From Brachyspira sp. (GTDB taxonomy: Bacteria; Spirochaetota; Brachyspiria; Brachyspirales; Brachyspiraceae): a stretch of 32,950 bases of DNA. A program made the translations under genes and the position numbers. This document shows, piece after piece, positions 1 through 28,301 of the stretch. Each line of letters opens with the position of its first letter. The stretch's first letter is position 1. The stretch spans positions 1 to 32,950 of the forward strand of contig NZ_JARHYI010000051.1 in NCBI RefSeq assembly GCF_029258575.1. The letters are read 5' to 3'. Below the pieces are notes generated by a model. That model searched no databases. It saw nothing but the letters and a program-made list of their open reading frames with translations, and was not told the origin of the DNA.

Positions 1-102
1 AAATTAATAAAATATAATAATTTTTGGAATCATAAAAGAATACATTCCGCTTTAAATTATGATACTCCTATGTTATACTTCAAAAAAATAAGGAATACTT
101 AA
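1..102 (+). pseudogene. C-terminal tail of an IS3/rve-type transposase (partial)
   Basis: The reading frame is open from the first base of the window to a TAA at 100-102 and gives 33 residues. It contains the segment YNNFWNHKRIHSALNYDTP, which fits the conserved C-terminal motif of rve-type (IS3 family) transposases: Y-N...R-x-H-S-A-L-x-Y-x-T-P, just after the catalytic Glu region. The DDE catalytic residues would lie outside the window, so I cannot tell whether the element is intact. No matching reading frame of an insertion sequence continues to the right, and the following 700 bases are poor in coding signal, which is why I treat it as an element end or remnant. The family call rests only on this motif. 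Confidence 0.6.
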
Positions 103-17465: not shown

Positions 17466-18695
17466 TTATTCTATACATTCAGAAAGTATATTAACAGCTT
17501 TTTCTAATTCTTTATCTGTTATTGTGAGGGGAGGAAGAAGCCTTATTTTATTTTTAGCGGTTAAAGGTATCACTCCTTTTGATATGCATTTTTCTACAAC
17601 TTCTTTAGCATTAAGACCTTCTTTTAATCCTATACCAAGCATTAAACCTATACCATCAACATTTTCTACATTATTGAGTTTTATTAATTTATCTTTTATA
17701 TATTTTGATTTTTTATTTACTTCTTTTAATAAATCTTTGTTTATAATGTTCAATACTTCCAAAGCAGCACTTGCAACAATAGGATTAGCACCGAATGTAG
17801 AACCATGATCTCCCTGAACAAATACATCAGAGCATTTTTTACTCATAAGCATTGCCCCTATAGGAAGTCCTCCTCCTAAACCTTTGGCTAATGTAGTAAT
17901 ATCTGGTTTTATATCGAAATGTTCAGAACATAAAAATTTACCAGTTCTTCCCACACCTGTTTGTACTTCATCAACTATAAAAAGTATATCATTTTTTTCG
18001 CAATATGTTTTTAATCTTTGTATATATTTTTTATCAAGAGGTATAACTCCTCCTTCTCCCTGTATAAGTTCTATCATTAATGCACAGGCATTGTCTTTCA
18101 ATTTTTCTACGGTATCATCATAATTGTTAGCCTCTGCAAATGAAAAACCTTCTAGAAACGGAAAAAAGAAATTATGAAAAACTTCCTGCCCTGTGGCTGA
18201 AATTGTAGCTAAAGTTCTGCCATGAAATGAATTTTTTAATGTTACTATTTTATTTCTTTTATAATATCTATTATTATCAGCATATTTTATAAATGAGTAT
18301 TTCCTTGCACATTTTATAGCAGCTTCATTTGACTCTGCACCTGAATTGCAGAAAAATACTTTATCATACTTTGTTATAGTGCATAATTTTTTTGCTAAAT
18401 CTATATAAGGTTTATTATAGTAAAGATTTGAAGTATGCTGCAAGGTTTTTAATTGATTAGTTACAGCATTTATATAATCTTTATTAGAATATCCTATGCT
18501 ATTTACTCCGATTCCGCTTCCTAAATCAATATACTTTTTTCCTTCTATATCTTTTAATACAGCTCCTTTTCCAGATTCTAATACCAAATCGAATCTAGCA
18601 TAAGTATCGGCTACATATTTTTTACTGTTATTTATATATTCTTTTTTTAATTTTGATTTTTGATTATTATTTTTATTTGTTTTCTTACAAGTCAT
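17466..18695 (-). CDS. argD: acetylornithine aminotransferase
   Basis: This PLP-dependent class III transaminase of 409 residues converts N-acetylglutamate-5-semialdehyde to N-acetylornithine with glutamate as donor. Diagnostic segments are NSGAESNEAAIKCARKYS, SFHGRTLATISATGQ, the PLP-ring Asp in VDEVQTGVGRTGKF (D242) and the Schiff-base lysine K271 in TTLAKGLGGGLPIGA. The N-terminus has a Lys/Asn-rich extension of about 20 residues before the usual start. The ATG is supported by AGGAGT six bases upstream. It is the last gene of argC-argJ-argB-argD, 15 bases after argB. The same fold also serves ornithine or succinylornithine, but the operon fixes the assignment. Confidence 0.93.
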   Translation of the reverse strand: MTCKKTNKNNNQKSKLKKEYINNSKKYVADTYARFDLVLESGKGAVLKDIEGKKYIDLGSGIGVNSIGYSNKDYINAVTNQLKTLQHTSNLYYNKPYIDLAKKLCTITKYDKVFFCNSGAESNEAAIKCARKYSFIKYADNNRYYKRNKIVTLKNSFHGRTLATISATGQEVFHNFFFPFLEGFSFAEANNYDDTVEKLKDNACALMIELIQGEGGVIPLDKKYIQRLKTYCEKNDILFIVDEVQTGVGRTGKFLCSEHFDIKPDITTLAKGLGGGLPIGAMLMSKKCSDVFVQGDHGSTFGANPIVASAALEVLNIINKDLLKEVNKKSKYIKDKLIKLNNVENVDGIGLMLGIGLKEGLNAKEVVEKCISKGVIPLTAKNKIRLLPPLTITDKELEKAVNILSECIE

Positions 18696-18710: not shown

Positions 18711-19577
18711 TCAATTTTTATAAAACATAGTTCCTATACCTTCATCAGTGAACATTTCTATAAGTAATGAATGGCATAATCTTCCGTCTATAATAAATAC
18801 TTTTGATACTCCGTTATTAACAGCATCTATACAATGCTTAACTTTAGGAAGCATTCCTCCTAAAATAGTTCCGTCATTGATAAGATTATCTATATCTTTA
18901 ATATTTATTGTACTTATCAAAGTGCTTTCATCATCTTTATTTTTTAAAAGTCCAGGGGTATCTGTCATATATATTAATGTTTCAGCTTTTAAACTCTCAG
19001 CTATTTTTGCTGCTGCAGTATCCGCATTTATATTGTAAATATTTCCATCTTTATCACTTCCAACTGTAGCAACTATTGGAATATATTTATTTGTTATTAT
19101 TGTATTTAACAAATCAGTATCAACATCGTCTACATCGCCTACAAAACCTAAATCTTCGCTTCCTTTATATTTGCTTACTTTAAACATATTTCCATCAATA
19201 CCGCATATTCCGAGACATTTTCCTCCGCAGTTTTCAATTGAGGCTACAAGCTCTTTATTCACTTTTCCAGCAAGAACCATTTTTACTATTTCTGCGGTTT
19301 CTTTATCTGTATATCTAAGTCCATTTATAAACTTTGATTCTTTTCCTACTTTGTTCAGCATAGCAGTAATATCTTTTCCTCCTCCATGTACTACTATAAC
19401 TTTTATTCCTACTGTAGAAATCAAAGCAACATCGCTCATAACTTTCTTTTTTAATTCAGAGTTTTCCATAGCACTTCCGCCGTATTTTATTACAACAGTT
19501 TTTCCTGTATATCTTTGTATGTACGGTAATGCCTGATTAAGTATAAATGCTTTATCTCTATTTGAAATATTATCCAT
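18711..19577 (-). CDS. argB: acetylglutamate kinase
   Basis: The 288-residue amino-acid kinase phosphorylates N-acetylglutamate with ATP, the second step of arginine synthesis. The glycine-rich ATP-binding segment KYGGSAM (K31), the substrate loop VVHGGGKDI and AGKVNKELV are all present. An N-terminal helix (about 7-22, KAFILNQALPYIQRY) precedes the first strand. In characterised enzymes this extra helix is found in the arginine-inhibited hexameric form, so feedback inhibition by arginine is expected. GGAAAA upstream of the ATG serves as ribosome-binding site. It follows argJ by 43 bases. Confidence 0.94.
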   Translation of the reverse strand: MDNISNRDKAFILNQALPYIQRYTGKTVVIKYGGSAMENSELKKKVMSDVALISTVGIKVIVVHGGGKDITAMLNKVGKESKFINGLRYTDKETAEIVKMVLAGKVNKELVASIENCGGKCLGICGIDGNMFKVSKYKGSEDLGFVGDVDDVDTDLLNTIITNKYIPIVATVGSDKDGNIYNINADTAAAKIAESLKAETLIYMTDTPGLLKNKDDESTLISTINIKDIDNLINDGTILGGMLPKVKHCIDAVNNGVSKVFIIDGRLCHSLLIEMFTDEGIGTMFYKN

Positions 19578-19620: not shown

Positions 19621-20862
19621 TTAGCTCCTGTATGAGCCGTTAATTTTTACATAGTCATAAGTTAAATCACAGCCCCAAGCTACAGCCTTGCTTTCTCCTG
19701 AATTCATATTGATTGTTACTTTTATTTCATCTTCTTTTAATATTTTCAATGCCTCATCTTCATCAAAAGCAATACCGTATCCATCTTTATAAACATTCAT
19801 ATCGCCATATTTTGAGCCTACATTTATAGAAACTTTATTTATATCAAAATCAGCATCTTCAGTATATCCTACAGCACATGCGATTCTTCCCCAATTCATA
19901 TCGCATCCGAACATAGCAGCCTTTACTAAATTTGAAGTTATTACTGACTTAGCTATTTTTTTTGCCAATTTTAAATCGCTTACATTGATTACCTCGCATT
20001 CTATAAGCTTTGTAGAACCTTCTCCATCTTTTGCTATTTGTTTAGATAAATAAGTATTAACTGTATTCAATGCATTACAGAATATTTTATAATTATCATC
20101 TTCTTTATCTATCAAAATATTTTCAGCTTCTCCATTAGCAAGTATTATGCACATATCATTTGTAGAAGTATCTCCATCAACACTCACCATATTATAAGTG
20201 GATTTTGTATCTTCGCTTAAAGCTTTTTGAAGCATTTCGCTTGTAATATTGCAGTCTGTAGTTAAAAATGCAAGCATAGTAGCCATATTAGGGTGAATCA
20301 TTCCGCTTCCTTTTGCTATTCCTCCAATATGAACTGTTTTTCCTGCTATTTCAAATTCATAAGCTATTTCTTTCATAAATGTATCCGTAGTCATTATAGC
20401 TTCAGCTGCATTTTTAGAATGCTCTGAAGAATGATTGGCATTATCAATTAATTCTTTTATATTTTTTTGTATATGCTCTATTGGAAGAGGTACTCCTATA
20501 ACACCTGTAGAAGCAACAGCAACATCTTTTTCATCAATACCCAATACATTTGCAGTGAGTTTGCACATTTCTTTTGCATTTTCAACTCCGTTTTTATTAC
20601 AGGTATTAGCATTTCCAGAATTGCATATAATTGCCTTTGCTTTTCCATCTTTTAAATGTTCTTTACTTACTGTGATATTCGCTCCGCATACTTTATTTTG
20701 AGTATATACTGCCCCTACAGAACATAAACTTTTGCTATAAATTATTGCTAAATCTTTTTTATCTGAATTCTTTTTTATTCCTGAATGTATTGCGTTTGAT
20801 GAAAATCCTTTAGCGGCACATATTCCACCTTCAATTTGTTTTATATTATTATTTTGAATCAT
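19621..20862 (-). CDS. argJ: glutamate N-acetyltransferase / amino-acid N-acetyltransferase
   Basis: The 413-residue ArgJ transfers the acetyl group from N-acetylornithine back to glutamate, giving ornithine and regenerating N-acetylglutamate (cyclic pathway). The self-cleavage site is intact: T195 in KGSGMIHPNMATMLAF becomes the N-terminal nucleophile of the beta chain. The oxyanion-hole region ASTGVIGVPLP is also present. Whether it can also use acetyl-CoA (bifunctional) cannot be read reliably from sequence. It lies 132 bases after argC, and that gap contains a dyad. Its presence explains why no argE or argA is needed locally. Confidence 0.94.
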   Translation of the reverse strand: MIQNNNIKQIEGGICAAKGFSSNAIHSGIKKNSDKKDLAIIYSKSLCSVGAVYTQNKVCGANITVSKEHLKDGKAKAIICNSGNANTCNKNGVENAKEMCKLTANVLGIDEKDVAVASTGVIGVPLPIEHIQKNIKELIDNANHSSEHSKNAAEAIMTTDTFMKEIAYEFEIAGKTVHIGGIAKGSGMIHPNMATMLAFLTTDCNITSEMLQKALSEDTKSTYNMVSVDGDTSTNDMCIILANGEAENILIDKEDDNYKIFCNALNTVNTYLSKQIAKDGEGSTKLIECEVINVSDLKLAKKIAKSVITSNLVKAAMFGCDMNWGRIACAVGYTEDADFDINKVSINVGSKYGDMNVYKDGYGIAFDEDEALKILKEDEIKVTINMNSGESKAVAWGCDLTYDYVKINGSYRS

Positions 20863-20994: not shown

Positions 20995-22053
20995 TTAAAA
21001 TGCAGGCGGTATAAAATTTAGTCCTTCATCTTCTTTTAAACCTAATGCTATATTCATATTTTGTATAGCCTGTCCTGCCGCTCCTTTTACCATATTATCA
21101 ATTGCTGATACTATTATCAATTTGTCTGTTCTATTATCTAAATGCAAAGATATATCGCAGTAATTAGAATATTTAACATATTTTAAATTTGCTGTTTCTC
21201 CAATATCAAGAACTCTTATAAATTTTGAATCTTTATAAAACTCTTTATAAATATTATATATATTTTCTAATCTTTCATTTTTATTTTCTAATTTTGTATA
21301 TATTGTAGAAACTATACCTCTGTTTAATGGAAGTAAATGAGGTACAAAAGTGATTTTTATATCCTCGCCGTATATGTTGGATAAAGTCTGTTCTATTTCA
21401 GGGGTATGTCTATGATTTGCAACTTTGTATGGTGAAAATGCTTCATTACATTCTGTATAATGAGTATTTAATTTTAATTCTCTTCCTGCACCTGTTGCTC
21501 CTGATTTTGAATCTATTATAATATCATCTTTGATTATCAATTTATTTACTAAAGCAGGTGCTAATCCTAAACTTATAGAAGTAGGGTAGCAGCCAGGATT
21601 TCCTATTATTTTAGCTTTTGTTAATTCCTTTTTATTATATACATTATCATATTTTATTATTTCAGGTATTGAATATATTGCTTCTTTATGAATATCTTTA
21701 TATTTATATTCTTTGCCGTACCAATTTTTATAATCTTCTTCATTATCTAATCTGAAGTCAGCACCTAAATCTATAAATAAAATATTTTTTTCAAAACATT
21801 TCTTTGCAATATTATCGCTTAATCCTGCAGGTAATGATGCAAATACAACATCAGTGTCTTCAAATATTTCATTTTCATCTGATAATAATTTATCCAAATT
21901 TTTGTTTAAATTAGGATATACTTCATTTATATTTTTACCCGCATAACTTTTTGATGATAGATTTTTTAATTCTACTTTACTATGCGATAATAATAATCTA
22001 ATTAATTCTGCACCTGCATATCCTGTTGCACCTATAACGGATACTTTTATCAT
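20995..22053 (-). CDS. argC: N-acetyl-gamma-glutamyl-phosphate reductase
   Basis: The 352-residue NADPH-dependent enzyme reduces N-acetylglutamyl phosphate to the semialdehyde, the third step of arginine synthesis. The N-terminal dinucleotide-binding motif is VIGATGYAGAELIRLL. The catalytic cysteine is C155 in GNPGCYPTS, and the C-terminal KGAAGQAIQNMNI is typical. The length fits the common bacterial ArgC type 1. AGGAG lies eight bases before the ATG. It is the first gene of the operon and is preceded by a leader of about 180 bases containing an arginine-rich-codon peptide. All eight arginine codons in this gene are AGA, in contrast to that leader. Confidence 0.95.
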   Translation of the reverse strand: MIKVSVIGATGYAGAELIRLLLSHSKVELKNLSSKSYAGKNINEVYPNLNKNLDKLLSDENEIFEDTDVVFASLPAGLSDNIAKKCFEKNILFIDLGADFRLDNEEDYKNWYGKEYKYKDIHKEAIYSIPEIIKYDNVYNKKELTKAKIIGNPGCYPTSISLGLAPALVNKLIIKDDIIIDSKSGATGAGRELKLNTHYTECNEAFSPYKVANHRHTPEIEQTLSNIYGEDIKITFVPHLLPLNRGIVSTIYTKLENKNERLENIYNIYKEFYKDSKFIRVLDIGETANLKYVKYSNYCDISLHLDNRTDKLIIVSAIDNMVKGAAGQAIQNMNIALGLKEDEGLNFIPPAF

Positions 22054-22145
22054 AATAATATACTCCTATAATAATTTAAAATGATATCATCAAGAATAAT
22101 ATCTAGTTTTGATAAACTTAGTTTTGTTTAAGAAACGAAAGAATA

Positions 22146-22164
22146 AAGCGGAGGCTTAACGCCT
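22146..22164 (-). promoter_or_regulatory. overlapping alternative hairpins at the end of the arg leader peptide
   Basis: On the minus strand, AGGC (22164-22161) can pair with GCCT (22155-22152), enclosing the CGT codon remainder and the stop codon. Alternatively AAGC (22157-22154) can pair with GCTT (22149-22146), displaying CTCC in a four-base loop. The two helices share bases and exclude each other, and the exposed CTCC complements the GGAG of the argC ribosome-binding site. Both stems are only 4 bp, so the structure is suggestive rather than proven. Confidence 0.4.
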
Positions 22165-22206
22165 TAAGAAATTATTTTCGATTGTAATTTTATTAATATT
22201 ATACAT
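22156..22206 (-). CDS. putative arginine-responsive leader peptide of the arg operon
   Basis: A 16-residue frame, MYNINKITIENNFLRR, starts at ATG 22206 with AGGA eight bases upstream and ends TTA-AGG-CGT-TAA. It lies about 30 bases after a predicted minus-strand promoter and 102 bases before argC. The last two sense codons are both arginine and both non-AGA, whereas all eight arginine codons in argC are AGA. This is the layout of a leader peptide sensing charged tRNA-Arg through ribosome stalling, as for trp or his leaders. No canonical terminator follows, so translational attenuation or Rho control would be needed. The short length means chance cannot be excluded. Confidence 0.5.
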   Translation of the reverse strand: MYNINKITIENNFLRR

Positions 22207-22240
22207 TTTTATTTTCCTAAAACTGTTTAATATTTAAAAA

Positions 22241-22268
22241 ATAATACAACAAATTATAAAAAAGTCAA
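22241..22268 (-). promoter_or_regulatory. sigma-70 type promoter of the arg operon
   Basis: Read on the minus strand, TTGACT (22268-22263) and TATTAT (22246-22241) are separated by 16 bases. The predicted start is near 22234, giving an argC leader of about 180 bases that contains the leader-peptide frame. Confidence 0.55.
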
Positions 22269-27955: not shown

Positions 27956-27987
27956 TTTTTTATTATTTTTATATTATACTAATAATG

Positions 27988-28125
27988 TATATTGAAGGAA
28001 ATAGGTCAGAATCCTATACTAGCCCGTAGCCGTATTCAGTAGCGAACCCTAATTAACCATTGTTACCTTTAAAGGTGATGAGAAGGTAGGATGTAGAAAG
28101 CTGTAAGTCGGAATATTTCAATATA
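27988..28125 (+). ncRNA. cobalamin-riboswitch-like RNA
   Basis: A perfect 9-bp closing helix joins TATATTGAA (27988-27996) to TTCAATATA (28117-28125). Inside, GGAA is followed by hairpin ATAGG-TCAGAAT-CCTAT (28001-28017), close to the conserved GGTGAGAATCC element of cobalamin riboswitches. Next come AGCCCGTAGCCGTA (28021-28034), like the CCCGCnACTGT core, then GAGAAGG, and AAGTCGGAATA (28105-28115) in the place of the B12 box. The order and spacing of these blocks agree with the cobalamin class, but several bases deviate, so it may be a divergent or variant member. It lies between a BtuFCD-like importer and a B12-dependent diol dehydratase operon, both on the same strand, which supports the call. 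Confidence 0.7.
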
Positions 28126-28301
28126 TAGTTTATTTTCTGTCGAGGAGCATGGAATGGAATTTCTATTATAACTATTTTTTATATCATTAATTAATTAATT
28201 CAGATCTTTATATTAAATTTGTTTAATTATATAAATCAATTTTCTATATCGTTTCAATTTAATGAAACTTTTTTTATTTTTTTAAAAATGAAGTCTTTTT
28301 G

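Follow-up and report, generated by a model that had tools for sequence, protein, structure and literature searches.

The argCJBD operon and its leader

The window, by which we mean the whole stretch of 32,950 nucleotides of Brachyspira sp. DNA analysed here, carries argC, argJ, argB and argD on its minus strand behind a short leader with a reading frame of its own. A first-pass annotation had placed a promoter, an AGGA ribosome-binding site and a 16-codon frame ending AGG-CGT-TAA ahead of argC, and all were located at that minus-strand site. The features are as follows:

17466..18695, minus strand: argD (TIGR00707, above the NCBIfam cut-off)
18711..19577, minus strand: argB (TIGR00761, above the NCBIfam cut-off)
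19621..20862, minus strand: argJ (TIGR00120, above the NCBIfam cut-off)
20995..22053, minus strand: argC (TIGR01850, 407 bits against a cut-off of 233.6)
22054..22155, minus strand: C-rich, G-poor spacer from the leader stop to argC, a putative Rho-loading region (base composition)
22063..22067, minus strand: argC Shine-Dalgarno AGGAG (sequence)
22152..22164, minus strand: hairpin AGGC-GTTAA-GCCT, its loop containing the stop codon (consensus structure; −4.9 kcal/mol)
22156..22206, minus strand: leader ORF of 16 codons plus stop, MYNINKITIENNFLRR (ATG at 22206, TAA at 22158–22156)
22159..22164, minus strand: tandem Arg codons AGG (22164–22162) and CGT (22161–22159), the probable sensor (invariance, rarity)
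22215..22218, minus strand: leader Shine-Dalgarno AGGA (TTTAGGAAAA retained in most argC leaders)
22241..22268, minus strand: promoter-like TTGACT-16 nt-TATTAT (sequence; recurrence in relatives)

Matches to the consensus promoter are common in this AT-rich stretch, where 5 were found against 5.7 in shuffled sequences. TTGAC and a −10 element stand at the matching position, 55–67 nt from the start of the leader ORF, in every relative with complete sequence. An Rfam search gave no match to the leader region. Elsewhere in the window, a cobalamin riboswitch (RF00174, 50.1 bits) lies at 27957–28137 on the plus strand, directly after an iron/B12-type ABC transporter; the genes from 28489 that follow it we take, by recognition, to be a propanediol-utilisation-like operon (shell protein, diol dehydratase subunits).

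argC is present in 23 of 26 Brachyspira genomes. A search for ArgR (PF01316) found it in none of the 26, while the same search detected it in 9 of the 14 known genomes used as controls. No Arg-Arg leader frame was found in the upstream regions of argF and argG in Brachyspira. argG itself is missing from 7 of 21 near-complete genomes of the genus (G001, G002, G011, G013, G014, G018 and G019); six of these retain argC, and the pathway there may end before arginine.

Conservation of the leader frame

We found 19 distinct Brachyspira argC leaders with a frame of 15–21 codons that ends AGG-CGT-TAA. Their ATG-to-AGG spacing varies (39, 42, 45, 48, 51, 54 or 57 nt), every value being a multiple of three, and in these intervals the leader frame is free of stops, whereas the other two frames contain 22 and 34. 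These two regularities indicate that the frame is selected, and on the strength of such sequence comparison we regard it as almost certainly real. In an AGG-anchored alignment, AAGGCGTTAAGCCTC is invariant in 17 leaders and nearby positions on either side drift. The peptide shows no conservation outside the terminal Arg-Arg-stop, the residue before Arg-Arg being S, L, F or I; a peptide that drifts apart from this end fits codon sensing. Including six transporter leaders described below, AGG-CGT is invariant in 25 leaders and Arg-Arg stands immediately before the stop in 24 of them, these leaders all coming from related species of one genus, so that the counts are not independent and represent fewer independent events.

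The earlier expectation that relatives would keep the start codon, the frame and AGG-CGT-TAA while the flanks drift was therefore borne out, but a second hairpin that had been expected to be kept with them was not. Conservation of the frame and its Arg codons, seen in these 19 leaders, also stops short of B. alvinipulli and two relatives (L029, L020 and L021), whose argC leader frames, MYNSLLHYLFILGNSLV, MYNSLLHYLFILGNSLL and MYIFIATLFVHTR, lack the Arg-Arg end; non-conservation in close relatives, which the first-pass annotation had named as refuting its proposal, is confined to this clade. The lack reads as a lineage-specific loss, or as a gain elsewhere, the rooting being unsure; in the argC tree, the outgroup and the incomplete L017 are labelled as Arg-Arg by default only. 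L021 retains a single AGG before the stop, and L029 and L020 are shifted by a one-base difference. Tandem TTGGC repeats lie upstream of argC in G020, the source of L020, and a short TTGGCTTGGCTTG stretch occupies a similar position in the window (22470–22446, minus strand).

The argC upstream regions of spirochaetes outside the genus, 31 in number, yielded no similar Arg-Arg leader, and their short Arg-containing frames look like chance in sequence that is mostly GC-rich. Among the matches listed from a genus-wide scan for promoter-ATG-AGGCGT, the recognisable leaders are those of argC and the transporter only; the remaining matches listed lie within genes, at gene starts or in a repeated element. 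None of eight other AGGCGTTAA sites in the window's genome is a leader. A repeated element of about 250–300 bases with inverted ends, GACTTGTTTCAAAACTAC ... AGTTTTGAAACAAGTC, occurs in several copies in G006 (L295 and L319, near 1440–1760) and also in G018, and looks like a MITE.

A second leader before a transporter

Five species (G011, G012, G013, G014 and G017) have a further frame whose product ends ...FFQVLIRR before the stop; it comes with AGGCGTTAAGCCTA and a promoter of its own. The genes behind it encode a polar amino-acid ABC transporter, inferred to be of the arginine type, the order in G012 being binding protein, binding protein, permease and ATPase. In a sixth species, G019, which has no argC, the leader MKIYYNSYKSRRISLNNVQFKK carries an internal AGG-CGT before a related transporter gene. 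That such a leader recurs ahead of an uptake operon of the kind one would expect is, in our view, the strongest functional evidence.

Codon rarity and tRNA supply

Codon usage was sampled in 529 genes (0.8 Mb) of the relative G004. AGA makes up 82% of Arg codons there, AGG 10% and CGT 4.5%, and none of the 233 Arg-Arg pairs in these genes is AGG-CGT. In the window, argC uses AGA for each of its eight arginines, as had been noted; the view that two successive codons of other kinds stand out before the leader stop is thus upheld. Among the 30 of 33 tRNA genes examined in the window's genome, the Arg anticodons are TCT, CCT, GCG and TCG, and this set, together with codon usage, indicates that AGG and CGT are probably read by minor isoacceptors. 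The same 30 genes include a GCG anticodon and no ACG; CGT would need a tRNA with G34.

The first-pass annotation had interpreted the leader as an attenuator in which ribosomes stall according to the supply of charged Arg-tRNA, with a translational readout. The first part is supported, in that the conserved frame, the transporter leader and the absence of ArgR make the Arg codons the probable sensor, and we hold it quite likely that the leader senses arginine through Arg-tRNA supply. The second part is not, for reasons given below.

RNA structure and readout

No terminator-like site was found in the leader, as the first reading had also concluded, and terminator-based attenuation was rejected on this ground. 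RNAalifold across the leaders returned a sole consensus structure, the 4-bp hairpin AGGC-GTTAA-GCCT, which is invariant in 17 leaders and shows no covariation. In L019 and L023 the pairing shifts register to GGCG-TTAAT-CGTC or CGCC, a hint that it may matter to have the stop codon in a hairpin loop. Besides this hairpin, no conserved structure over the spacer or masking the argC Shine-Dalgarno was found in the 19 leaders. The AGGC/GCCT hairpin had been described as one of a mutually exclusive pair; it exists, but its proposed partner AAGC/GCTT (22157–22146), though present in the window, is absent from the 18 other leaders.

The readout first proposed was translational: CTCC, once unmasked, would base-pair to the Shine-Dalgarno of argC, which would be freed when a stalled ribosome covers CTCC. 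CCTC is indeed invariant in 17 leaders, CTCC is complementary to GGAG, and the lack of a terminator would suit such a mechanism. The predicted pairing between this core and the Shine-Dalgarno, however, reaches 0.14–0.31 in only three argC leaders and is at most 0.004 in the other 16 of 19 and in all five transporter leaders. Moreover, CTCC is replaced by CTCT in 7 of 17 leaders, the alternate hairpin occurs only in the window, the 4-bp hairpin is the sole consensus structure, and modelled masking by a stalled ribosome clearly raises Shine-Dalgarno accessibility in only 3 of 19 leaders. This claim has not survived the comparison, and we judge translational readout unlikely.

The composition of the spacer points elsewhere. 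The 60 nt after the leader stop contain 12 C and 5 G in the window (7–13 C and 1–5 G across the argC leaders), against means of 4.7 C and 5.3 G in 355 control upstream regions of G004; C exceeds G by at least 6 in 17 of 19 argC leaders and in 4% of the controls. Rho is present in all 26 Brachyspira genomes. Since the spacer is C-rich and G-poor and every genome has Rho, Rho-dependent attenuation is the leading candidate for the readout. The case for Rho is less strong in that the transporter leaders show a smaller bias (6–8 C and 2–4 G; 5 C and 4 G in G019) and leaders without the Arg codons an equal one: the spacers of the B. alvinipulli clade are C-rich and G-poor despite having no Arg-Arg end, so such a spacer need not go with Arg sensing. 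In absolute terms, the C content of the spacer is low for a classical rut. If the leader does sense arginine, we put the chances that it is read out through Rho at about even.

A ribosome parked at the Arg codons might instead alter mRNA decay, rather than termination or initiation. There is a precedent in the Salmonella orf34-speF leader, which responds partly via an RNase G-sensitive mRNA structure (PMC6386406), but the 4-bp hairpin is the only conserved structure in the Brachyspira leaders, and we think an effect on mRNA stability improbable. Sensing by the peptide itself would be a bacterial counterpart of the arginine attenuator peptide of fungi, with nascent Arg-Arg at the stop arresting the ribosome in response to free arginine or another ligand. 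It would account for the position of Arg-Arg next to the stop in 24 of the 25 leaders; yet residues beyond Arg-Arg are not conserved, Arg-Arg is internal in G019, and the choice of codons never varies, although a peptide sensor would have no need of fixed codons, all of which makes this reading very unlikely. Lastly, it is most improbable that an unknown repressor binds the palindrome AGGC-N5-GCCT as its DNA operator, the frame being incidental. In favour of this reading, the perfect dyad does not vary among 17 argC leaders and five transporter leaders, and each genome has a single copy of the exact 15-base motif, which lies upstream of argC. Against it, the frame is maintained across seven lengths, L019 and L023 break the dyad while keeping Arg-Arg-stop, and G019 has AGG-CGT without the dyad.

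A proposed model for arginine-supply sensing

The promoter, the Shine-Dalgarno, the frame, the identity of the codons, their recurrence before a transporter, the absence of ArgR and the presence of Rho are observed in the sequences, and from these we infer stalling, the direction of the response and Rho as the readout. We propose a model whereby a ribosome initiates at the leader ATG, a short way behind the promoter. When Arg-tRNA is plentiful, AGG-CGT would be read, the ribosome would terminate at TAA and leave, the C-rich, G-poor spacer would be exposed to Rho, and expression of argCJBD would be low. When charged Arg-tRNA is scarce, the ribosome would stall when AGG or CGT occupies its A site, cover TAA together with the conserved GCCTC that directly follows, and, so parked, shield the start of the spacer from Rho, allowing the operon to be expressed. 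Counting against the model are the presence of only two regulatory codons, compared with the runs of such codons in classic attenuators, the lack of such a leader at argF and argG, and the lack of the Arg-Arg end in the B. alvinipulli clade. Overall, a leader that senses arginine supply, with Rho-dependent termination as its leading readout, is the best explanation of the data, and we consider it likely.

Relation to known leaders

The closest parallel is Salmonella orf34 (SpeFL), in which the consecutive Arg codons AGG-CGG sense arginine and ribosomes pause when arginine is low; synonymous Arg codons still function there and Lys codons do not, and the orf34-speF leader is also subject to Rho-dependent termination (PMC6386406). 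Both systems have a short leader ORF with two adjacent Arg codons and would share a sensing principle. They differ in that orf34 has 34 codons, a HIRRT..HIMM domain, internal Arg codons, a long structured 5' UTR and an ornithine decarboxylase as its target, whereas in the Brachyspira leader the Arg codons come last in the ORF, the remaining peptide drifts, and the targets are arginine synthesis and uptake. By inspection, the HIRRT..HIMM core of SpeFL/orf34 (PF10940) is absent from the Brachyspira peptides, most of which are too short for a profile search. The sensing principle thus appears to be one already known from orf34-speF, with a different peptide, target and leader structure.

In E. 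coli tnaC, a ribosome that halts on reaching the end of its leader ORF can keep Rho off the RNA immediately beyond the stop, the arrest acting through the TnaC peptide and free tryptophan; in the Brachyspira leader the likely sensor is the codons, not the peptide. As in the trpL, hisL, leuL and ilvB1 leaders, a short leader, predicted to be translated, stands ahead of a biosynthetic operon and contains codons for the amino acid under control. Unlike them, it has no intrinsic terminator or terminator/antiterminator pair, and only two regulatory codons, at its very end. In the translation attenuation of erm and the mycobacterial cysteine uORFs a stalled leader-ORF ribosome controls the gene behind, as it would here, but Brachyspira lacks a conserved structure masking the argC Shine-Dalgarno. 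ArgR acting on ARG boxes controls the same target genes in many bacteria, but ArgR is absent from this genus. In agreement with the earlier remark that no such leader was known from spirochaetes, the open-access literature yielded no Arg-codon leader peptide for an arginine biosynthesis operon, nor any in spirochaetes.

Implications

These observations lead us to suggest, tentatively, that an ArgR-less spirochaete genus controls arginine synthesis and uptake through a minimal two-codon AGG-CGT sensor that ends a freely drifting peptide, has its stop codon in a hairpin loop, and is read out by Rho and not by a terminator hairpin. Because AGG and CGT are invariant in the leaders, in genomes where AGA is the predominant Arg codon (82% in the relative sampled), isoacceptor-specific sensing is directly testable, and the leader may serve as a tiny natural assay for which tRNA isoacceptors are depleted first. 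If true, the model would explain how Brachyspira, without ArgR, adjusts arginine synthesis and uptake.
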